A model generated the notes under the pieces. That model searched no databases. It saw only the letters and a program-made list of their open reading frames with translations, and was not told where the DNA came from. From contig JAFGOM010000050.1 in NCBI GenBank assembly GCA_016926505.1, forward strand, positions 1 to 50,784: 50,784 nt of DNA, in the 5' to 3' direction. The translations under genes were made by a program, and so were the position numbers. The DNA is from Methanospirillaceae archaeon (GTDB lineage Archaea > Halobacteriota > Methanomicrobia > Methanomicrobiales > Methanospirillaceae). Positions 23,835-34,462 of this stretch are shown in pieces (position 1 is the stretch's first letter; each line of letters starts with the position of its first letter).

Positions 23835-24270
23835 GAATAACAGCATCACGACCGTTTCCCGAATACGGATCCATCTATTCGTATCATTTTTCAAACAGGA
23901 AAGACCAGACAACCGGACGGTTGTTCCTCGTGATAGAGAAAGAAAAAGGAATTCAATCGGCGATTTGTCAGGTATTTTTCATCACTCCATATAAGAACGG
24001 TCTCGTTTCATTCAATACGATACATGCTGTTCCTTTGTAGAATCATTCCGTTGGATATTTTATCGATACCGGCACTACATTCCCTATGCTCTCTCACGCG
24101 AGAGGTTTGTCTGTTTAAATACCGGAATTCGTATCAGTAACAAACCCTTTCGGCAACCAGTTGCTATATCACAAAAATAACAGGTGATATAACACCTGTT
24201 TATTATTTTCATTTACTTATCCTCCAAAAATAACTAAAATATTTATGCCTGCATGCTGAAATGATAATGA
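23835..24270. other. intergenic region with tupABC control signals
   Basis: This 436-nt gap has no credible gene. The first half is unremarkable. The last 110 nt carry TATATCA at 24165-24171 and an 18-bp dyad at 24181-24198 (separate entry), 72 nt before the tupA start, followed by a T-rich stretch. This is the likely promoter and operator zone of the tungstate transport operon. Confidence 0.5.
24181..24198. promoter_or_regulatory. 18-bp palindrome upstream of tupA, candidate Mo/W operator
   Basis: The sequence CAGGTGATATAACACCTG has perfectly complementary 6-bp arms around ATATAA; the pairing extends to 8 bp (24179-24200). A near-identical element is at 29535-29552, and the two differ only at positions 4 and 15 of the 18-mer, which pair with each other (G-C here, T-A there). 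The shared core TGATATAACA contains GTTATAT on the other strand, which resembles the half-site I recall for bacterial ModE. A related TATATCA lies at 24165-24171. Operator function is inferred. Confidence 0.6.
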
Positions 24271-25188
24271 ATGACAGGAAGAACACTGACTGTTTTAATT
24301 GCCATAATTCTTGGAGTAGTGCTTATTTCAAGCCCGGTATTGGCTGCAGAGGCCCTTCCGGAACACAGTGCAGACCGCCTCCTTATCGGAACCACCACGA
24401 GCCTTGATGCGACCGGACTCTTAGACGTCCTTTCAGAGAAATTTGAGGCTGATAACGGGATAGATGTCCAGTGGGTCGCGGTCGGAACCGGACAGGCTAT
24501 TGAATATGGCCGGAACTGTGATGTCGATATCATCATGGTGCATGACCGTGTTGCAGAAGATAAGTTTATTGATGAGGGATATGGTCTTGACCGGCGTATC
24601 TTCGGATATAACTACTTCCTGCTCGTCGGACCCGGAAGCGATCCAGCTCAGATTTCCGGTCTGAATGCGACGGAAGCCTTTAGTGCTATAAATACAGCAG
24701 GAGAGACCGATGAATCGGTTGTCTTCGTCTCCCGTGGTGACAATTCCGGAACCCATTCCCGTGAAAAACTCCTCTGGAAGGGAGGGGGATATGATTATGC
24801 AGTAATCAATGCATCACCCTGGTACCGGGAAGCAGGAGCAGGGATGGGCCAGACGCTTACCATGACTGAAGAACTGCAGGCATATACCCTTTGTGACTCT
24901 TCTACCTGGGGAGCCTACGAGAGTGAATTAACCTTAATCCCGCTTGTTGAGAATGATGACCGGTTCCTTAACATCTATGCAGTCATGCGGATAAACCCTG
25001 ATCTCTGTCCGGACGTGAACGCGGAAATGGCAAAGAAATGGGAGAACTTCATGATAAGCCCTGAAGTACAGGATATCATCGGAACCTACGGGATCGAGGA
25101 GAAAGGCAAAGCTTACTTCAGCCCTGCTTTGGGAAATGAAGAACTCATCGGTGTGCTGGTTGAAGAGACTACCACTCCGGTAGTATAA
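24271..25188 (+). CDS. tupA: tungstate ABC transporter substrate-binding protein TupA
   Basis: The 305-residue exported binding protein has a signal peptide (hydrophobic 6-25, ending SSPVLAAEA). The mature part opens with LLIGTTTSLDATGLLDVL; the TTTS motif (41-44) and SRGDNSGTH (154-162) are the oxyanion-binding signatures of the TupA family, distinct from ModA and WtpA. The next genes are the permease and ATPase of the same system. No strong ribosome binding site is seen before the ATG. It would deliver tungstate (possibly molybdate) for formate dehydrogenase and formylmethanofuran dehydrogenase cofactors. Confidence 0.9.
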   Translation: MTGRTLTVLIAIILGVVLISSPVLAAEALPEHSADRLLIGTTTSLDATGLLDVLSEKFEADNGIDVQWVAVGTGQAIEYGRNCDVDIIMVHDRVAEDKFIDEGYGLDRRIFGYNYFLLVGPGSDPAQISGLNATEAFSAINTAGETDESVVFVSRGDNSGTHSREKLLWKGGGYDYAVINASPWYREAGAGMGQTLTMTEELQAYTLCDSSTWGAYESELTLIPLVENDDRFLNIYAVMRINPDLCPDVNAEMAKKWENFMISPEVQDIIGTYGIEEKGKAYFSPALGNEELIGVLVEETTTPVV

Positions 25189-25223
25189 TCCCCTCTTCTT
25201 TTTTTCATCTGATATTCGTTTTT

Positions 25224-25910
25224 ATGAATGATCTAATCACCGGTATCGGTATTGCGTTCGGGTTGATACTGACCGCAGATCCAGAAGTTATCGATATCAC
25301 GGCGAGGACGTTAGCGATAACATGCTCATCAACGCTTATCAGTGTCGTTGTTGCGCTCCCTCTCGGGGCGGCAATAGCCTTCCGGGACTTCCCAGGGAAA
25401 AGAACCGTGATAAGTATCATTCAGACACTCTATGCACTCCCTACCGTTGTTGTCGGTCTCCTCTGCTTCATGGTACTCTCCCGCTCCGGACCTCTCGGGT
25501 ATCTTGGCTGGATGTTCACTCCAAACGGGATGATATTTGGCCAGACCGTGCTGATTCTTCCTATTACGGCCGGACTCGTCATCACTGCCCTTCAGTCAGT
25601 CAGTCCCGGCATCACCGATACGATCCGATCTCTTGGTGCCTCCCGTCTCCAGTTCTTACGCAGTCATGTAAGGGAAGCGCGCTTTGCCATTATGGCGGCA
25701 GTAATCGTGGGATTCTCACGGGCAATATCTGAAGTCGGAACAGCCATCATGATTGGAGGTAATATCAAGGGCCATACCCGTGTTCTTACAACTGCGATAT
25801 CGCTCCAGACCTCCATGGGTAATTTCAGCCTCTCCCTGGCGCTGGGAATTATTCTGCTTGTCATTGCACTGGTCATTAACCTGCTGTTGGGTCTCGTTCA
25901 GAACCGGTGA
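25224..25910 (+). CDS. tupB: tungstate ABC transporter permease TupB
   Basis: The 228-residue permease has about five to six membrane helices. The ATPase-docking EAA-like loop reads DTIRSLGASRLQF near 132-144, then the characteristic GFSRAISEVGTAIMIGGNI. This pattern is that of TupB/ModB-type permeases. It begins 35 nt after tupA, and its stop lies 6 nt before the start I chose for tupC. The protein sits in the cytoplasmic membrane with TupC bound on the inside. Confidence 0.9.
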   Translation: MNDLITGIGIAFGLILTADPEVIDITARTLAITCSSTLISVVVALPLGAAIAFRDFPGKRTVISIIQTLYALPTVVVGLLCFMVLSRSGPLGYLGWMFTPNGMIFGQTVLILPITAGLVITALQSVSPGITDTIRSLGASRLQFLRSHVREARFAIMAAVIVGFSRAISEVGTAIMIGGNIKGHTRVLTTAISLQTSMGNFSLSLALGIILLVIALVINLLLGLVQNR

Positions 25911-25915
25911 AGAGC

Positions 25916-27007
25916 ATGATAACGATTGATAATATTAAGAAATCATTTGACGGGAAAACAATTCTGTCCGGGGTTGACGGGACGATTAAAACCGGAGAGA
26001 TCTTTGCGATTATCGGCCCTTCAGGTCAGGGAAAAACGACACTCTTACGGATACTCAATCTCTTAGAGACACCATCAGAGGGGAATATTATCCTGGATGG
26101 CGTATCGATTCACGAGATAAAAGACCGGAATCAGATCAGAAGAAAGATGGGGATGGTATTTCAGGACACCATTGCATTTCATGACACTGTCTTTAATAAT
26201 ATCGCTCTCGGTCTTCGGTACCGGCATTACTCCAAAAAAGAGATACAAGAAAGGGTTATGCAGAAACTTGGGGAGATAGGACTGTCTGGTTTTTCGAACC
26301 GGAACGCTACCACCCTTTCCGGGGGTGAGAAACAACGTGTTTCCCTGGCCCGCGTGCTGATAACAGACCCTGAGATCCTCCTCCTTGATGAACCGACAGC
26401 CAATCTTGATCCCATCTCTACCGAGGTGATTGAGAACCTCATCCGTCGCTATAACCGGGAGTGTAATACAACGGTCATCATGGCGACCCATGATCTCCTC
26501 CTTGGTCAGCGGCTTGCAGACCGGGTAGCCGTGATGATGGATGGCCGGTTTATCCAGTCAGGAACCGTGTTTGATCTCTTTTCCCGTCCGTGTTCCGGAG
26601 CTGTGGCACAATTTATCGGAATTGGCAATATTCTTACCGGAACAGTTATCGGGAATAAAGACGGTATGGCTGTGATAGAAACAGATGGAGTGAGGGTATA
26701 TGCACTCGGAGAGATACCGCCACAGACACCGGTAACCATTGCAATACGACCCGAGGAGATAACGCTTCACCGTGGATCCGATACCGGGACGAGTGCACGT
26801 AATGTCATTACCGGAATCATCGAATCGGTTCAGCCCTTTGGAATCATCAGTACAATCCGGGTATCTCATAACACATTCCGGCTCTCGGTACAGGTCACCT
26901 GGCAGTCTATGCAGGATCTTAATCTTGCACCCGGCATCCCGGTAACAATATCCTTTAAAGCATCATCAGTTCACGGTATGCCGGATGAATGTTCCCATGC
27001 TGCCTGA
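25916..27007 (+). CDS. tupC: tungstate ABC transporter ATPase TupC
   Basis: The 363-residue ATPase has Walker A IGPSGQGKTTLL, Q-loop region MVFQDTIAFHDTV, signature LSGGEKQRVSLARVL, and Walker B LLLDEPTANLDP. The C-terminal third (about 235-355) is a TOBE/MOP-like domain, expected to sense oxyanion in this family. The ATG at 25916 has GGTG 6 nt upstream; a GTG at 25907 in the same frame would overlap tupB. Its 3' end overlaps the permease-like MOT1 gene by 23 nt, suggesting one transcript for both import systems. Confidence 0.9.
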   Translation: MITIDNIKKSFDGKTILSGVDGTIKTGEIFAIIGPSGQGKTTLLRILNLLETPSEGNIILDGVSIHEIKDRNQIRRKMGMVFQDTIAFHDTVFNNIALGLRYRHYSKKEIQERVMQKLGEIGLSGFSNRNATTLSGGEKQRVSLARVLITDPEILLLDEPTANLDPISTEVIENLIRRYNRECNTTVIMATHDLLLGQRLADRVAVMMDGRFIQSGTVFDLFSRPCSGAVAQFIGIGNILTGTVIGNKDGMAVIETDGVRVYALGEIPPQTPVTIAIRPEEITLHRGSDTGTSARNVITGIIESVQPFGIISTIRVSHNTFRLSVQVTWQSMQDLNLAPGIPVTISFKASSVHGMPDECSHAA

Positions 27008-28118
27008 TACGCTCACATCCCGTTTTCCGTACATCATACGGGAACTTGCCGGCAGTGGAGGAAATTTTGGAACAGTTCTTCCCCTATTATTTGCGGTCTC
27101 GATTGCATGTGGGATGAGTATCTCTCTTATGCTGGTCTGGGCTGCTGTCTTTTATGGGATCTCTGGTTTCTGGTACCGAATCCCTGTCCCGGTAGAACCC
27201 TTAAAAGCGGTAGGTGCGCTAGCTATCGCCGGGCACCTCTCGGCAAACCTGGTTGCAGCATCAGGAATCCTTGTCGGAATCATCTGTCTTGCAATCGGGA
27301 TGCTTGGTTGTATGGAGAAGATCGAGAAGATAATTCCGCAGCCGGTTATCAGAGGAGTTCAACTGGGTCTGGCCTTTGTCTTTGTGAAAAGTGCATTCTT
27401 TGATTTCATCCTCCAAGATCTCTGGTTTACGATAATTTCAGTAGGTATTATCAGCGTAATATTCCTTATCAGACAATACCATGCCATTCCGGATCTCTCA
27501 GCAATATGCATTATTAGTGCAGGATTCCTTGCAGCAGGCATCCAGGCAGGGTTTCCTTCCCTCTCTGTTATCAGTCTCCTCCCCTTACCCGTCCTGGTCA
27601 TCCCTTCTGTTGAGGATTTCCTGAAAGCCTTAGTTATTCTCGTTCCATCCCAGATCCCGCTCACCCTCACAAATGCAGTTCTTGCTACCTCCCTTCTCGT
27701 TACCGATCTCTATAAAAAAACAATCTCTCCTGATCGTCTCTGCAGAACGGTTGGAGTGATGAGTATCACATCTTCCCTCTTTGGTGGATTTCCACTGTGT
27801 CATGGTGCCGGTGGTCTTGCAGCCCATTACCGGTTTGGCGCACGGGGAGGTCTCTCGCTGGTTTTTGGAGGGATCCTCCTCTTTGTGCTTGCAATCATCT
27901 GTGCTGATCCTGAGATCATCAGTTCTCTCCCACAGGGAATGTTTGGGGTACTGCTTCTTGTTGTTGCGTATCAACTGGCTGTCTACGGAGTCAGGACAAC
28001 GGATCGACTGACCACGGGGATGATGGCAGTTCTCGCTATTCCGCTGGGTCTGACGGTTGCATTCTGTTCTGGTCTTATCCTCTCTGCACTCATGCAGTAC
28101 CGGCTGAGAAAAAGGTGA
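26985..28118 (+). CDS. molybdate/sulfate permease of the MOT1 family
   Basis: The 377-residue polytopic membrane protein has about ten or more hydrophobic segments. Two family landmarks are visible: PVPVEPLKAVGA at 67-78 and FPLCHGAGGLAAHYRFGAR at 269-287. These are hallmark sequences of MOT1-type molybdate transporters, a branch related to SulP carriers. It overlaps tupC, so it is part of the tungstate uptake operon. A second oxyanion importer directly coupled to TupABC suggests different affinities or different metals. The start is uncertain because other ATG codons lie close by (26997). Confidence 0.87.
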   Translation: MNVPMLPDTLTSRFPYIIRELAGSGGNFGTVLPLLFAVSIACGMSISLMLVWAAVFYGISGFWYRIPVPVEPLKAVGALAIAGHLSANLVAASGILVGIICLAIGMLGCMEKIEKIIPQPVIRGVQLGLAFVFVKSAFFDFILQDLWFTIISVGIISVIFLIRQYHAIPDLSAICIISAGFLAAGIQAGFPSLSVISLLPLPVLVIPSVEDFLKALVILVPSQIPLTLTNAVLATSLLVTDLYKKTISPDRLCRTVGVMSITSSLFGGFPLCHGAGGLAAHYRFGARGGLSLVFGGILLFVLAIICADPEIISSLPQGMFGVLLLVVAYQLAVYGVRTTDRLTTGMMAVLAIPLGLTVAFCSGLILSALMQYRLRKR

Positions 28119-28120
28119 TA

Positions 28121-28405
28121 TTAATCAGTATCGTCTCTTCCTGTGCTTTTATGTGCAAACCACCATTTCATACCAACAAGAGCGGCGATAAGTGATCCGG
28201 TGACGGTATTGGCGGCAATAAGGGGAGGATCCTTATCTACGATTCCATATATAACCCAGAGAGATACGCCGACAAGGAGTAAAAAAAGCAGTCCCCATGA
28301 GATGTCATGGGCTGTTCTGCTCTTCCAGGTTTTGATAACCTGGGGAAGGAAAGCAAGAGTAGTACAGATGCCACCGACGTACCCGGTATACAGGAGAGGA
28401 TCCAT
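28121..28405 (-). CDS. SemiSWEET (PQ-loop) small membrane transporter
   Basis: The 94-residue protein has three hydrophobic helices and a PQ-loop: LAFLPQVIKTW at 18-28. This is the layout of bacterial SemiSWEET sugar transporters, which work as dimers. It is convergent with the MOT1 gene, with 2 nt between the stop codons. Why a sugar-type facilitator sits among Mo/W genes is unclear; it may be unrelated or carry another small metabolite. Confidence 0.87.
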   Translation of the reverse strand: MDPLLYTGYVGGICTTLAFLPQVIKTWKSRTAHDISWGLLFLLLVGVSLWVIYGIVDKDPPLIAANTVTGSLIAALVGMKWWFAHKSTGRDDTD

Positions 28406-28671
28406 ATCCTAGGATTTAGATTTTTTGATGTATGAAGATGCGTGTATACACAATCCATCCTATATTCAGCAGAGCCATGCGCAGGATTGTCGTATACGAA
28501 CCTGACCGTGAGGGGTGCAGGAATCAGGCAGGGAAACGTATGGTATTGAGAGACCGGGGTGACCGTGACGGATATTACTCTCAAAACCGGGAAGGTACGC
28601 CCGGGATCCGCTTATTTTGTCACCTGATATTTCAGGAGATGGTATCCTTCGTTCAAATGGGATTGGATGTA

Positions 28672-29484
28672 TTAATCAGCCCTGATGATGGTACCGACGT
28701 TCTCGCCGGCAACAGCACGGGTAACCATTCCTGGTTTGTGACCGTTTACGATCCGAACCTCCCGTAATGAACGGGACTCTGGCAGAAGTTCAATTACTTT
28801 CCGTTCAAGGACGAGATCATCCATCTTCATCTCTAATAGTTCTCCTGCAGTGATCTCCGGGATCAGTTCTGCATCCGGATACTTTGGGTGACGGGTATAC
28901 AGCCCGTCGACGTTTTTGACAAGGATACAACTCTTTGCTCCAAGCACTTCTGCTGCAAGAAATGCACCCGTATCTGTCCGGTGGACCGGGATTCCTCCCT
29001 GAGTTTTTTCAGATGGTTGTTCATACAGTCCGTATGGGGGTGTTCCGTGAATGACCGGGAGCGCACCCATCCCGAGGAATGTCGGGATCTCAAGGAGATC
29101 ACCGGTGTGGATTCTCATTGCCCGGTACGGTGACATGAGTGTAGCAAGCATAATTGCATTCTGCTCTGATATTTTACCGCAGAGCTCGGCAAGGACTCCG
29201 GTCGGCATGCCAAGGTTAAGCCCGATATCAAGGATATGCCTGACTCTGACTCCTCCCCCGGTTACAAGGAGCATCTGGTTCTTCTGCGAGAGTGAACCAA
29301 TTTCCTCTGTCAGGGGAAGGACAACATCACGGCCATAATCGATGATTCCATGCCCTCCGATCTTTATCACCTGTAAATCCGGAAGTATCCGCAGAAGTGG
29401 CCTGTCCCTGTACGCGTCAAATAACCCTTCTCGTACCAGGGTCTCATCCTGCAGGTAGCTGTTTAATAAAAAACGTTTGTGCAT
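28672..29484 (-). CDS. molybdenum/tungsten storage protein-like amino acid kinase family protein
   Basis: The protein has about 270 residues from the ATG at 29484, which is preceded by GGGA; an ATG at 29499 gives five more residues. It belongs to the amino-acid kinase fold with KIGGHGIIDYGRD (41-53), VTGGGVRVRH and PVHRTDTGAFLAAEV, then LVKNVDGLY and PEITAGELLE. This combination is that of the MosA/MosB molybdenum storage subunits of Azotobacter, which use ATP to pack polyoxometalate clusters, rather than uridylate kinase. Only one subunit gene is present, so a homo-oligomer is implied. The divergent palindrome at 29535-29552 lies 50 nt upstream. Function as Mo/W store is inferred from homology and context. 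Confidence 0.82.
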   Translation of the reverse strand: MHKRFLLNSYLQDETLVREGLFDAYRDRPLLRILPDLQVIKIGGHGIIDYGRDVVLPLTEEIGSLSQKNQMLLVTGGGVRVRHILDIGLNLGMPTGVLAELCGKISEQNAIMLATLMSPYRAMRIHTGDLLEIPTFLGMGALPVIHGTPPYGLYEQPSEKTQGGIPVHRTDTGAFLAAEVLGAKSCILVKNVDGLYTRHPKYPDAELIPEITAGELLEMKMDDLVLERKVIELLPESRSLREVRIVNGHKPGMVTRAVAGENVGTIIRAD

Positions 29485-29534
29485 AATCTTCCCTTGCATA
29501 TTTATAGATCAAGCACGAAATAGATATACTATAT

Positions 29535-29552
29535 CAGTTGATATAACAACTG
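29535..29552. promoter_or_regulatory. 18-bp palindrome between storage-protein gene and divergent small gene
   Basis: The sequence CAGTTGATATAACAACTG has 6-bp perfect arms around ATATAA, the same loop as the element upstream of tupA. A second overlapping dyad, TATATCA-GT-TGATATA, spans 29530-29545. It is 50 nt from the start of the - strand storage protein gene and 28 nt from the + strand small gene, so it could control both. Compare 24181-24198: the only two differences are complementary to each other. Confidence 0.6.
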
Positions 29553-29837: not shown

Positions 29838-30179
29838 ATGCCATCTCTCTCTATCGAGGGACTTTTTGAATCTGCAGTGCAGATATTTCTCTTCGAAGAT
29901 AATGCAGTAACCATTACCTTTTCAGGAGAAGGCATACGTATCCGGTTTCCTACGACAAGACGCCTGGCAGAATTCCTTGATGTTCCCCATTATTATATCC
30001 TGCCCTATTTTGCGATGATGGAAGAACAGGAACTGGTTACGCGTGCTGAACGTATTGGTATCCTTACTACTGCCAGAGGTACCGATCGGATTCTGACCAT
30101 TATGAGGAACAGGTATTCCCGGGAGAGTGCGAGAGTAATGGGAGAGCAGATCTTTTCCGATCTGGTAACCCCGGACTGA
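29838..30179 (+). CDS. uncharacterised winged-helix-like protein, candidate regulator
   Basis: The 113-residue protein has an N-terminal beta-rich part (AVTITFSGEGIRIRFP at about 23-38). A helix-turn-helix-like segment follows: TRRLAEFLDVPHYYILPYFAMM (40-61), then EEQELVTRAERIGILTTARG, whose last part looks like a wing. The C-terminus is basic (IMRNRYSRESARVMGEQ). TTTATAGG lies about 20 nt upstream of the start, so the message may have a very short leader. Its position 54 nt after the 67-residue gene and near the palindrome makes it a candidate DNA-binding regulator of this cluster. The family is not recognised. Confidence 0.55.
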   Translation: MPSLSIEGLFESAVQIFLFEDNAVTITFSGEGIRIRFPTTRRLAEFLDVPHYYILPYFAMMEEQELVTRAERIGILTTARGTDRILTIMRNRYSRESARVMGEQIFSDLVTPD

Positions 30180-30390: not shown

Positions 30391-30660
30391 TCATCGGTAT
30401 GAATTATACCATTGTTCATAGTCCTTGTGATATGCAAAGCAATGGAGGATATAGAGTGTTTGTTCCCGGATTTCATAGATTATTCGTGCCTGACGTGTCA
30501 CCTTCTCAACATGAAAGGGGATACCATATTTCATGTGACGGCGGGGCGGAAGGGATTGGATCTTCTCACCATGTGAGGGGAAAAGGATCTGGAGATCGCG
30601 GGGAAATCGTTCAAACTCCCTGACTGCATATTCTGTAAATGCCACCTCCATTATGGTCAC
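30391..30660 (-). CDS. RelE/ParE-type toxin
   Basis: The protein has about 89 residues (GTG at 30660; an ATG at 30651 is possible). The pattern AVREFERFPRDLQ near the start, LPPRRHMKYGIPFHVEKVTRQARIIYEI in the middle and ILHCFAYHKDYE at the end is that of the RelE/ParE toxin superfamily, whose members cleave mRNA on the ribosome or inhibit gyrase. The start overlaps the stop of the upstream antitoxin gene by 4 nt, as in most type II modules. Which toxic activity applies cannot be told. Confidence 0.75.
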   Translation of the reverse strand: MTIMEVAFTEYAVREFERFPRDLQILFPSHGEKIQSLPPRRHMKYGIPFHVEKVTRQARIIYEIREQTLYILHCFAYHKDYEQWYNSYR

Positions 30661-30893
30661 GTCTTTGAGAGCTTCTTTAGATCCTCGAGAGTGTAGAGAG
30701 AGCTACTCCCCGTCAGCACCTCTCCCATCTCAATGGAGACGCCCCTATGGACCAGCATCATCTCCTCCTCCTCAAGTATTCTTTCATATGCAAGAATTGC
30801 CTGTCTGATAACCTCAGTCTGATTCCCCGCATATCCCTTCTCGATGATCCTCCGTATAGCATCTTCGTACGGTCTCCCGATAGTAATGTTCAT
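30657..30893 (-). CDS. ribbon-helix-helix antitoxin
   Basis: The protein has about 78 residues from the ATG at 30893. The open frame extends to 31013 but that part is AT-rich upstream DNA containing the operator. The N-terminal part (MNITIGRPYEDAIRRIIEKGYAGNQTEVIRQAI, shown as motif only in part) is a ribbon-helix-helix pattern: a beta strand, then helix, turn, and NQTEVIRQAI as the second helix. The C-terminal tail with LYTLEDLKKL would bind the toxin. The gene precedes and overlaps the toxin, and a 7-bp-arm palindrome lies just upstream. Confidence 0.72.
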   Translation of the reverse strand: MNITIGRPYEDAIRRIIEKGYAGNQTEVIRQAILAYERILEEEEMMLVHRGVSIEMGEVLTGSSSLYTLEDLKKLSKT

Positions 30894-30908
30894 AGAAACC
30901 CACTTTTG

Positions 30909-30927
30909 ATGTATATTAATTATACAT
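30909..30927. promoter_or_regulatory. palindrome upstream of toxin-antitoxin pair, probable autoregulatory operator
   Basis: ATGTATA and TATACAT flank the 5-nt centre TTAAT, giving a perfect 7-bp dyad 16 nt upstream of the antitoxin start. Type II antitoxins with ribbon-helix-helix domains normally bind such dyads to repress their own promoter. The site is AT-rich and may also contain the TATA element. Confidence 0.5.
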
Positions 30928-31080
30928 TCAATGATATAATGAGTGTCTTTTTTATATGGATTCTGATAAGCCGTCCCCCATCCCTTTTTTCCATTATGGG
31001 GTGTAGGTATCATTCTGGTTCCTGTTAAAAAAGTTTGATTTTCTCATGCAAATCAACAGATTACAGATATCATCAGAATA

Positions 31081-32988
31081 TCAGGGTTCTCTGTAACCCG
31101 TTCGTGATGGTGAATCAGATTCGATCTTCTTCCTCTTGTTATGGTAGACTTCTGACTGATCTGATACGAAATACCCGGGGGTATCCTGTACCCGTTTCTT
31201 CCAGGCATCAGATGTGATAATACTGATACAATCTGACAATGCCTGTTCCTGCTCCATCTCTGTCCGGTATATCAGATCGTATCTGAGGTTTCCGATTGGC
31301 GAGAAGGAAAGGCCTGCAGACCTTGCATTGTATTCTGAACAGAAACCGGCATCAGCAGAACCGTTTTTCAGGGCTGACAGGATGGCTATCTCATCTCCCC
31401 GGATACTGTTTTCTAACCGTGTATCTCCGTCTGTTCCTGCTTCTTTCATCAGGCGGTACAGGAGTGCTTCCTGTGGACTACCTTGTAATGGAAAGATAAA
31501 CCGAACAAGTGAAATATCCTGAATAGAATACACGGCATTTCCTGCGATGCCGTAAACGATATCAGCAACCGGCACTGTTTTCACCGGGATACCGGGAAGC
31601 CATCGTCTAAAAATATCTCCGACACTACCGGAAGTTGGATCATACCTAACTGCTGCGAGGTGACATGCATTGCTTGCAAGAGCAAGGAGCCCTGAGACTT
31701 CCCCGGTATTCCGGAACCTGATGATCCGCCCTCTCCCCCGCATCATACTGTCTGCGACCCCGATAATCGGATCATGCACCCCGGCAACAAGGATGGTTGC
31801 ATCAAGGGTTGGTTCTTTAAACAGGGAGGCTGCCGTAACAACCGTCCCTTCTGCGTACCCCTCGATTTCAGGAGGAATATGGAGCCAGAGATCGGCAGAA
31901 AGGGCAGCCATCTGCACACCGGCACCCCTTGATAAGGGAACGGCGATGTACTTCCCGTTAATCTTTCCTGCAGAAAGGTAGACAAACTCGTCAATACCCC
32001 CGTCACTTACAAGCCTCTGTGCAAGAAAAACCTCTATCTTCTGTCGTTTGGGAACGAAAAAACCCCAGACTGCAAAGAGGGGTGCGATGAGTTCCTCGAG
32101 AATAACAACTGCAGAGAGCGGATAGCCTGGCATTCCGATGACCGGTTTTTTAAAAATATTCCCGCAGATAACCGGTTTTCCCGGTTTCATCGAGACCCCG
32201 TGAAACAGTACCTCCCCACATTCCTGTATTACACGCGAAGTGAAATCTCTCGTTCCGGCTGATGATCCTGCTGAGATGATGACCATATCGTTATTTTGTA
32301 TGGCATCAAGAACCACCTCCCTGATAGCTTCAGGGGAATCAGGCGTTATCGGGTACATCACCGGAGTTACCCCGAGTGTCTTGAGAAATGCTCTCGTCAT
32401 CTCCATGTTACTCTCGACGACCTGGCCCGGTTCCGGGTGGGTGCCTGGCGGGATGAGTTCCGATCCGGTAGGGATAAGCCCGATCGATACATCTCGAACC
32501 GGAACAGAAGTACATGCATAGGTCGCAAGAGCACCGGTATCAGCCGGCCTGATACAGTGACCTGCAGGAAAGACGATCTGTCCGAGAGTGACATCTTCGC
32601 CTGCAGGCCGGACGTGCTGTCCCGGACGGACAGCGCTTCGTACCTGTATTATCCCATCCCCGATTTCCCATGTATCCTCAACCATGATGAGGGCATCAGT
32701 ACCCTCTGGCATGACATTTCCCGTGTTTACCCTGATTGCACCAGGAACGGTAACGGGATTCTGATCCGAGGCACCATGAGTCCATGTGCTCGCAACCGCG
32801 TACCCGTCCATCGCAGCAAGTGGTGCCGGGGGAACCGTGAAAGGAACAATCAGATCCTCTGCCACGATACGACCGACCGATTCGGAAAGGGCAACAGTCG
32901 TTGTTCTTTCCGGGCGGGAAGAAAACGCGGTGCAGATGATCTTTTTTGCTTCTGCGAGTGAGATGAGGTTTAAGTACCGGGTTACCAT
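31081..32988 (-). CDS. moeA: MoeA-type molybdenumtransferase fused to periplasmic-binding-protein-like domain
   Basis: The 635-residue protein has two parts. Residues 1 to about 405 are a complete MoeA: FPAGHCIRPADTGALA, GLIPTGSELIPPG, SAGSSAGTRDF, VSMKPGKPVICG and GMPGYPLSAVVILEEL, which insert molybdate or tungstate into adenylylated molybdopterin. Residues about 410-620 are a PBP-like domain (from TILVAGVHDPIIGVADSMMRGR to the C-terminus), related to the domain found in some MoeA and ModE-associated proteins. It may bind a ligand such as the oxyanion. It overlaps the stop of the second moeA by 7 nt, so the pair is co-transcribed. Confidence 0.9.
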   Translation of the reverse strand: MVTRYLNLISLAEAKKIICTAFSSRPERTTTVALSESVGRIVAEDLIVPFTVPPAPLAAMDGYAVASTWTHGASDQNPVTVPGAIRVNTGNVMPEGTDALIMVEDTWEIGDGIIQVRSAVRPGQHVRPAGEDVTLGQIVFPAGHCIRPADTGALATYACTSVPVRDVSIGLIPTGSELIPPGTHPEPGQVVESNMEMTRAFLKTLGVTPVMYPITPDSPEAIREVVLDAIQNNDMVIISAGSSAGTRDFTSRVIQECGEVLFHGVSMKPGKPVICGNIFKKPVIGMPGYPLSAVVILEELIAPLFAVWGFFVPKRQKIEVFLAQRLVSDGGIDEFVYLSAGKINGKYIAVPLSRGAGVQMAALSADLWLHIPPEIEGYAEGTVVTAASLFKEPTLDATILVAGVHDPIIGVADSMMRGRGRIIRFRNTGEVSGLLALASNACHLAAVRYDPTSGSVGDIFRRWLPGIPVKTVPVADIVYGIAGNAVYSIQDISLVRFIFPLQGSPQEALLYRLMKEAGTDGDTRLENSIRGDEIAILSALKNGSADAGFCSEYNARSAGLSFSPIGNLRYDLIYRTEMEQEQALSDCISIITSDAWKKRVQDTPGYFVSDQSEVYHNKRKKIESDSPSRTGYREP

Positions 32989-34253
32989 TGTATCACTTCC
33001 ACCAGTTCCCCTGCTTCGAGCCCTTCAACACCGGCAGGAACCTTCAGGATACCGTCACTCTCTTTAAGCGTGTTCAATAATCCTGATTTTCCAAAAAGCG
33101 GAGTAACTTTTCCGTTCTTAACCCTGACCCTGATGTAGGTCTCTTTTCCCTTCTCAGCAGGTACATTCTCCGCCATTCTGGCTTTTATGGTAACCGAAGC
33201 TCCTGCAGGTCTTTTTTCCATCACCTGCAGGAGCGGAGAAACAACAAGGAGAAGCACAAGACATGCCGAGGCAGGATGTCCGGGGAGTCCGACCACCGGT
33301 GTATCGGCGACACTCCCGATTATTGTTGGTTTTCCCGGAGCAAGGGAGATTCCGTGGATATGCACGGTCCCGCACGCTTCGATTGCCGTTGCTGTGATGT
33401 CCTTCTCATCCTTTGAGCTCCCGCCTGACACAAGGACGGCGTCACATTCCCTGCAGGCGGTTGAGAGGAGATTGATGAGATGCTTCAGATCATCAGAAAC
33501 GATCCCGTACTGGATTGGTATGGCCCCTTTGCGTATGAGCATTGCTGCAATAAGCGATGCATTGACATCCCGTACCTGGCCTGGCCGGGGGGTTGCATCC
33601 ACGCCAACCAGTTCCCTGCCGGTAGAGATGATCCCGATCCGGGGACGGGACATAACAGCAACAAAGGTCTTTCCGATCGCTGCCAGAACCCCGATGTCCT
33701 GTGGTCTTAAGACCCATCCTGCCTCAAAGATACTGTCACCGGCATGAAAATCTTCATCTCTCCTGATAATGTTCTCTCCTAAAACGGCTGGTCTTCGTAC
33801 AAGAATGGTATCAGAAAGTCGTTCGGTATACTCGATCATAACAACAGCATCAGCACCTTTTGGTAGGACTCCCCCGGTAGGGATGTACCGGCACTGACCG
33901 GGAGCAACGAAATCATTCTCATCACTGCCCATCTCTACTGTACCGGCACAGGTAAGGAGAACCGGTGCAGCCTCTGATGCCCGCGGGGTGTCTGCAGCAA
34001 TGACTGCATAGCCGTCCTTCCATGATCGGTCAAAACCGGGAATATCAGAAGAAGCATAGATCGGCTCTGCAAGAACACGACCATCAGCCTCTTCCAGGGG
34101 TACTGACTCTGTGCCGGTTTCGTGGGCGATACTGCAGAGTTTCCCGATTGCAGTATCCAGAGAAACAACTGAGAAGAAGTATCCCTTGTTCCGGGATGGG
34201 GTGTCTGGTAATTTCTCTTCGGTATGATTGCCGCAAAAATCGTTCTGTTTCAT
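32982..34253 (-). CDS. moeA: molybdopterin molybdenumtransferase MoeA
   Basis: The protein has about 423 residues from the ATG at 34253; a longer frame begins with GTG at 34310. MoeA family features in order are VPLEEADGRVLAEPI, the IPTGGVLPKGADAVVMIE segment, WVLRPQDIGVLAAIG, GIISTGRELVG, VSGGSSKDEKDIT and SLAPGKPTIIG, then GLPGHPASACLV. The enzyme places Mo or W in the pterin cofactor. Two MoeA paralogues in tandem are common in archaea and may separate Mo from W insertion. It is the first gene of the - strand moeA pair. Confidence 0.9.
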   Translation of the reverse strand: MKQNDFCGNHTEEKLPDTPSRNKGYFFSVVSLDTAIGKLCSIAHETGTESVPLEEADGRVLAEPIYASSDIPGFDRSWKDGYAVIAADTPRASEAAPVLLTCAGTVEMGSDENDFVAPGQCRYIPTGGVLPKGADAVVMIEYTERLSDTILVRRPAVLGENIIRRDEDFHAGDSIFEAGWVLRPQDIGVLAAIGKTFVAVMSRPRIGIISTGRELVGVDATPRPGQVRDVNASLIAAMLIRKGAIPIQYGIVSDDLKHLINLLSTACRECDAVLVSGGSSKDEKDITATAIEACGTVHIHGISLAPGKPTIIGSVADTPVVGLPGHPASACLVLLLVVSPLLQVMEKRPAGASVTIKARMAENVPAEKGKETYIRVRVKNGKVTPLFGKSGLLNTLKESDGILKVPAGVEGLEAGELVEVIQW

Positions 34254-34462
34254 AAGGACACCACAAAAGACTGGTACTAATTGATTACCATATGTATTAT
34301 AATCTGACACACAATCAAAAGAATACGATAAACCTGAATACGGTTAAACGTGGATAGCTGGGATCCTTCTCCTCAATACATGAGGAAGTGCCGGAAGATG
34401 CTGAAGCTTTCAATGGGTAAGCGGTGGGATACAAATCAATAGCAAGTATCAGAGGTGTAAAG

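Follow-up and report, generated by a model that had tools for sequence, protein, structure and literature searches.

A conserved CANNTG-step DNA element beside tungstate-uptake and molybdenum-storage genes of Methanomicrobiales, and a candidate winged-helix regulator

Methanogens of the order Methanomicrobiales need tungsten or molybdenum enzymes for CO2 reduction. We analyzed a stretch of 50,784 nucleotides from a Methanospirillaceae archaeon (contig JAFGOM010000050.1 of assembly GCA_016926505.1, hereafter the window) that contains two closely similar sites of 18 base pairs (bp). One (site 1) lies upstream of tupA, which encodes the binding protein of a tungstate importer, and the other (site 2) lies between a gene for a molybdenum-storage-protein homologue and a divergent small gene encoding 67 amino acids (aa). 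Sequence comparison indicates that both sites belong to a conserved DNA element, CCARYTGGTATAYCARNTG, in which CANNTG hexamers are spaced 11-13 bp apart. It is likely that the two sites are operators of a 113-aa winged-helix protein, encoded directly after the small gene, that would link tungsten and molybdenum (W/Mo) uptake to storage.

The first-pass annotation had described the two sites as palindromes related by a compensatory base-pair change. They are identical at 16/18 positions; the two differences are at positions 4 and 15, which are symmetric to each other. Because the central ATATAA is not self-complementary, each site is palindromic at 16/18 positions. The pattern CAGNTGATATAACANCTG occurs exactly twice in the genome of 2,936,193 bases, at the two window sites, and its reversed control does not occur. 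The extra half-sites reported near both sites were also identified: a second copy, CCAGTTGCTATATCAC, whose CANNTG begins 23 bp ahead of that of site 1, and a weak half-site, TCAACTGATATAGTAT, adjoining site 2. The paired difference is present but carries little weight as evidence. The DNA gathered up to that test contains 62 distinct sites with an exact match to CANNTG-NTATAN-CANNTG. The two variable dinucleotides are complementary in 13 of them, compared with 7.6 (standard deviation 2.5) when they are re-dealt, and a count of 13 was reached in 3.2% of re-deals. What is conserved is a TATA core flanked by CANNTG hexamers at steps of 11-13 bp, rather than a stem that covaries freely.

Across the Methanomicrobiales, the element recurs ahead of the small gene that lies directly before the winged-helix gene, and the position of site 2 is the same in relatives. 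When 72 dereplicated small-gene upstream regions were searched for motifs de novo, TAWACCARYTGGTATANCAG emerged in 86% of them (log-likelihood 819, versus 72 for one shuffled set). The symmetric pattern is present in 48 of these regions at up to 1 mismatch and in 61 at up to 2, but in just 1 and 20 of 1440 dinucleotide shuffles; in the winged-helix gene's own upstream regions (n = 61) the counts are 0 and 1. Scores were assigned with a matrix trained on small-gene upstream regions of order genomes and contigs L114, L116, L126, L135, L139, L146 and L164. At 12 bits or more, this matrix identifies 62/72 small-gene and 39/51 storage-gene upstream regions, many of the latter being the same intergenic region that is shared with the small gene. 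Motif search on the storage-gene upstream regions gave the start of the divergent small gene rather than the operator, because these 160-bp regions extend into that gene. Named examples, drawn from the best 80 of at least 590 loci, include Methanospirillum hungatei M59 (L085), Methanoculleus sp. Afa-1 (L095) and Methanoregula sp. (L135, L139, L146).

Within the window's family the pattern CANNTGRTATANCANNTG occurs in 28/61 genomes (4/61 for the reversed control). Newly gathered loci with this pattern number 27, of which 21 are at the small gene, 1 is at tupA and 5 are elsewhere (L058, L059, L061, L062 and the contig end L063). Some genomes have more than one small gene. Three tandem copies in G017 (L165:194-1254, contig C61) each have a site ahead, two with the identical CAACTGATATATCAGATG and one with CAGCTGATATAACAAATG. 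Genomes of genus g20 (L204, L211, L212, L213, L214) have a second small-gene copy whose promoter is without the operator.

TupA is present in 35/41 genomes, and the tupA upstream regions of relatives contain variants such as CAGTTGATATACCAGTTG and longer arrays. For the analysis of spacing, tupA loci were split by hand into those of the window's family and those of other families. In the 33 family tupA upstream regions there are 19, 9 and 5 CANNTG pairs at steps of 11, 12 and 13 bp, compared with 0.0, 0.0 and 0.1 in shuffles; the 72 small-gene upstream regions have 38 pairs at step 12, compared with 0.2. This peak is absent from 26 tupA upstream regions of other families of the order, from 55 other TupA loci and from 61 winged-helix upstream regions. 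Motif search on a mixed set of 114 tupA upstream regions, bacteria included, returned an AT-rich, promoter-like motif and no operator. Across the order the predicted operator is associated with Mo/W storage genes; within one family, tungstate uptake is included as well.

The presence of the site tracks the presence of the winged-helix gene. Among the 130 order genomes, 79 have both the small gene and the winged-helix gene, 5 the small gene alone, 2 the winged-helix gene alone and 44 neither. Small-gene promoters were compared in 62 of the 84 genomes with a small gene (left out were G136, G142 and G154, in which the start was not located, G005 and 18 more). At up to 2 mismatches the site is found in 53/57 genomes with the winged-helix gene and in 0/5 without it, and at up to 1 mismatch in 42/57 and 0/5; in those five, the best match at the small gene has 4 or 5 mismatches. 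At tupA, arrays were identified in 36/46 copies from genomes with an identified winged-helix gene and in 2/10 copies from genomes in which none was identified, the latter two in genomes that are 65% and 74% complete. When genomes at least 90% complete are considered, the counts are 28/35 and 0/6. The tupA comparison covers 56 copies in 53 genomes, with G068 (a contig-edge fragment) and weak second matches dropped. G015 (13 bp upstream) and G064a (94 bp upstream) were counted as lacking an array, as was G001, though its upstream region shows several 12-bp units with TA replacing CA at some steps. In G057, which lacks the small gene, the winged-helix gene lies near tupA and tupA has an array, so the small gene is not needed for the tupA array.

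A profile search identified the winged-helix gene in 45/294 genomes of the phylum, 7 of them outside the order (in one, G183, the frame is interrupted). In each of the seven, the small gene is adjacent, and no more than about 60 bp upstream of it there is a site scoring 13 bits or more. The small-gene upstream regions used to train the matrix had been collected earlier, and these loci test the matrix on sequences beyond its training. In 4/7 the storage gene is not divergent but lies downstream in convergent orientation, and thus the site follows the pair formed by the small gene and the candidate regulator. In one of these four loci (L382:6870-6897) the operator lies between this pair and a divergent MOT1 homologue. 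As background, 65 TupA loci without the small and winged-helix genes (752,783 bases) contain 16 places of at least 14 bits.

The AlphaFold2 model of the winged-helix protein has a predicted local distance difference test score (pLDDT) of 93.7 and a predicted template modelling score (pTM) of 0.87. Its nearest solved folds are the DNA-binding domains of DtxR, IdeR and MntR (best Foldseek E 1.2e-3; VIA Z 8.2 to IdeR over 74 residues at 2.4 A). The window protein has no Pfam or NCBIfam match at E 0.1, and its 36 relatives have only scattered weak matches, several of them to helix-turn-helix models. As part of the same overall explanation, the protein is probably a member of an unnamed archaeal regulator family, with binding to the element predicted. 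The model of the 67-aa protein (pLDDT 84.8) has a beta-beta-alpha-beta arrangement; no relative in the PDB was identified at E <= 0.001 (best Foldseek E 0.35), which does not imply a new fold. This protein belongs to an unnamed conserved family tied to molybdenum-storage genes. A homologue that is 42% identical was identified in a Deltaproteobacteria-labelled locus (L162:11665-11829). It sits near a storage-gene homologue, and for this reason the 67-aa protein may be a partner of the storage protein.

The position of the element relative to candidate promoters differs between the genes. In small-gene upstream regions, the operator centre is preceded by peaks of TATA-like matches at distances of 40-45 and 25-30 bp, an arrangement in which the operator would sit at the transcription start or just past it. 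Alternatively, given TATA-like matches inside the core, the core itself could be the small-gene TATA box. In either geometry binding would block transcription. By a model estimate, AAAAAGAAATATTC follows 92% of the 38 tupA arrays, with a median distance of 33 bp from the final hexamer; the window's array and two others score below zero on this promoter element. The tupA array would thus lie upstream of a weak promoter box, as for an activator. At the storage gene the operator is on the promoter side and the candidate promoter box is found in several places, some TATA-like matches being the small gene's own box read backwards.

In the mechanism that we propose, the winged-helix protein, probably as stacked dimers, would read CANNTG steps flanking a GTATAY core. 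Because consecutive copies of the element are offset by 11-13 bp, roughly one DNA turn, several dimers could occupy neighboring copies. Bound at the operon of the small gene and regulator, the protein would cover the promoter or start and hold its own operon down. When tungsten or molybdenum is scarce, the regulator would bind and the TupABC importer would be switched on, with storage perhaps held down as well. When the metal is plentiful, the regulator would release the DNA. From the blocking position at its own operon and the upstream position at tupA, we infer self-repression and activation of uptake by the metal-free form. Sequence comparison establishes the element, its conservation and its dependence on a winged-helix gene being present; binding, the signal and the sign of control at each promoter belong to the proposal.

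Several observations weigh against this explanation. The association between site and winged-helix gene gives Fisher p values of 1.9e-5 (small gene) and 0.0009 (tupA) that overstate independence because the genomes share ancestry, and the 2-mismatch limit behind the first was picked after the data had been seen. Absences in good genomes are limited to genera g4, g6 and g8 for tupA and to g19, g24, g27 and g34 for the small gene. Three scored genomes of genus g33 (G101, G140, G155) and G014 have the winged-helix gene but no good small-gene site, and five of seven genomes of g12, which are close relatives (G011, G047, G054, G061, G067), have the gene but no tupA array. Arrays at tupA were not seen in other families of the order. 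The first-pass annotation had named a lack of conservation upstream of tupA orthologues as one observation that would speak against its proposal; enrichment is lacking in the 26 upstream regions outside the window's family but strong in the 33 inside it. Uptake and storage are therefore indicated to be under joint control in that family only. An orphan copy at C5:4983, described below, outscores both window sites. At the storage gene, TATA-like matches are scattered, with 22 at +10 to +14, 13 at +20 to +29 and 33 at +35 to +49 from the operator centre. A VIA Z under or near 8, as in the comparison of the winged-helix model with IdeR, can reflect a common arrangement. By sequence the likeness to DtxR is weak (E 0.11, profile versus PDB sequences), and no molybdate or tungstate ligand site was recognized in the candidate.

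Other explanations have to be compared with metal-free binding by the winged-helix protein. The same regulator could act with the opposite logic, its metal-loaded form binding to repress uptake and activate storage. A site upstream of at least some candidate storage-gene promoter boxes is compatible with such activation. Against it, the promoter or start region of the operon that encodes the regulator is itself covered by the site, and the tupA site, being upstream of the promoter box, is badly placed for blocking; we regard this logic as rather unlikely. It is improbable that the DNA-binding regulator is instead the 67-aa protein, although its gene is nearest to the site, it looks basic by eye and it co-occurs with the winged-helix gene in 79/130 order genomes. 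The five genomes that have the small gene only are without the site there, G057 keeps its tupA array with the winged-helix gene only, and the deltaproteobacterial locus L162 has homologues of the small and storage genes but no winged-helix gene and no 14-bit site.

The first-pass annotation had also pointed to a ModE-like half-site and to an RNA hairpin. The candidate targets, Mo/W transport and storage genes, would suit a ModE-type molybdate regulator. In PMC545781 the site through which ModE controls genes of Mo/W transport is palindromic and partly TATA-rich, and GTTATAT resembles part of its printed consensus, ATCGNTATATA-N6-TATATANCGAT. However, the consensus identified here, TAWACCARYTGGTATANCAG, is laid out with a different spacing from that one, and Pfam recognizes no molybdate-binding domain in the winged-helix candidate. 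The ModE domain TIGR00637 was not identified in any of 41 genomes (the window's own and 40 relatives), whereas 7/14 control genomes match (just two of these seven above the curated cut-off), with the archaea Methanosarcina acetivorans and Sulfolobus acidocaldarius among the seven. Binding by ModE is thus very unlikely. We give as little credence to a hairpin with a fixed AUAUAA loop in a 5' leader. Both sites fold as 38-nucleotide RNA (z -4.3 and -2.5) and the small-gene site may be transcribed, but folds in longer context are unremarkable (z -1.9 and -0.9), the tupA arrays lie upstream of the promoter element, and several small-gene sites retain one full arm only. Just 13 of the 62 exact sites have complementary arms, and an Rfam scan of the window at the gathering threshold gave no match.

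The first-pass annotation had proposed a shared Mo/W operator with a regulon reaching fwd/fmd, fdh and mod/wtp genes. A common DNA-binding protein is supported, with the winged-helix gene at 29838, which that annotation had picked out for footprinting, the best candidate based on co-occurrence; the wide regulon is not. In the own genome, 60 places were identified at up to 3 mismatches to the window pattern (12 for the reversed control) and 74 at up to 2 mismatches to a relaxed pattern (17 for the control). These scans were not exhaustive and part of the places was scored. Many high scorers lie inside long open frames, although the automatic coding label is rough: a spurious 111-aa frame overlapping site 2 caused that site to be labelled coding. 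Several other intergenic places were identified. One of them, the strong orphan CCAATTGGTATACCAG (L304:1501-1516 in G000, C5:4983), scores 24.9 bits and lies between methyltransferase and Cache-domain genes. Other intergenic places of at least 14.4 bits include L340:8580 (16.5, before a FAD-binding protein), L008 (16.2, response regulator) and L003 (16.1, CARDB protein). In Pfam, none of the ten neighbor genes tested is a recognized Mo/W gene; the types are methyltransferase, Cache, FAD-binding, response-regulator, CARDB, FecCD, MarR and glycosyltransferase, and two have no match.

Table 1. Predicted sites and neighboring genes in the window (positions from its first nucleotide).
Feature	Position	Strand	Evidence and remarks
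Operator site 1 (predicted)	24181-24198	.	CAGGTGATATAACACCTG; tupA upstream region; exact match
Operator site 2 (predicted)	29535-29552	.	CAGTTGATATAACAACTG; between the divergent storage-protein gene and small gene; exact match
Second element copy	24157-24172	+	CCAGTTGCTATATCAC; matrix score 19.3, versus 14.4 for site 1
Weak adjoining half-site	29526-29541	-	TCAACTGATATAGTAT; storage-gene side of site 2; score 9.2
Probable tupA TATA region	24236-24247	+	Assigned by eye; site 1 ends about 40 bp upstream
tupA, tungstate-binding protein of ABC importer	24271-25188	+	Best NCBIfam match tung_bind_TupA, 199 bits, below the 400-bit cut-off
tupB, permease	25224-25910	+	ABC_perm1, 242 bits (cut-off 100, passed); TupB equivalog, 159 bits (cut-off 320, below)
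Importer ATPase	25907-27007	+	Best NCBIfam match WtpC, 275 bits, below the cut-off of 440
MOT1-type molybdate transporter	26985-28118	+	Pfam MFS_MOT1, 149 bits
Molybdenum-storage-protein homologue	28672-29499	-	Divergent from the small gene; amino-acid-kinase domain
Small conserved protein, 67 aa	29581-29784	+	Gene directly before the winged-helix gene; in 84/130 order genomes
Winged-helix protein, 113 aa, regulator candidate	29838-30179	+	Co-occurrence with the site; predicted structure

The storage-protein homologue matches the MoSto beta subunit by phmmer at E 5.4e-57, and the best chain of another name at 1.6e-8. Beyond the winged-helix gene are two small overlapping minus-strand genes (30391-31013) that by eye resemble a RelE-type toxin and a CopG-like antitoxin. 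Two adjoining minus-strand MoeA genes, one fused to a PBP-like domain, are located at 31081-34310.

Regulators of the DtxR/IdeR/MntR type have palindromic operators and metal-homeostasis targets. The model of the candidate comes closest to their folds, but the candidate has just 113 aa and a marginal sequence match. For the divalent-metal ligands of that family, the comparison covers the IdeR stretch SVMRKHRLAE, where the aligned profile consensus of the candidate shows no His. Instead of Fe or Mn, an oxyanion or something connected with one would be the signal. TunR, the tungstate regulator of sulfate reducers, was predicted from conserved sites near Mo/W transport genes; its MOP-type sensor is joined to an integrase-like DNA-binding domain and its site is 30 bp long, whereas the candidate here is a winged helix with a site of 18-20 bp.

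The conserved operator as a real element, and a candidate regulator of an unnamed family, are well supported; binding of one to the other is predicted. In kind the system is already known: a metal-homeostasis regulator with a palindromic operator. In the open-licence literature searched, no report was found of a regulator for Mo/W or tungstate in methanogens or other archaea, and within that literature the regulator family, the operator and its likely use in two geometries appear new. More tentatively, a new archaeal family of one-component regulators with a DtxR-like DNA-binding domain may replace ModE in the Methanomicrobiales and their neighbors. Such a family might use one operator in two promoter geometries to switch between uptake and storage of tungstate or molybdate, and the phased CANNTG arrays might make this switch cooperative and graded. 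Roles are proposed here for two conserved protein families that are unrecognized by Pfam and NCBIfam, and the candidate protein and defined operator make regulation of the Mo/W supply in these methanogens testable.

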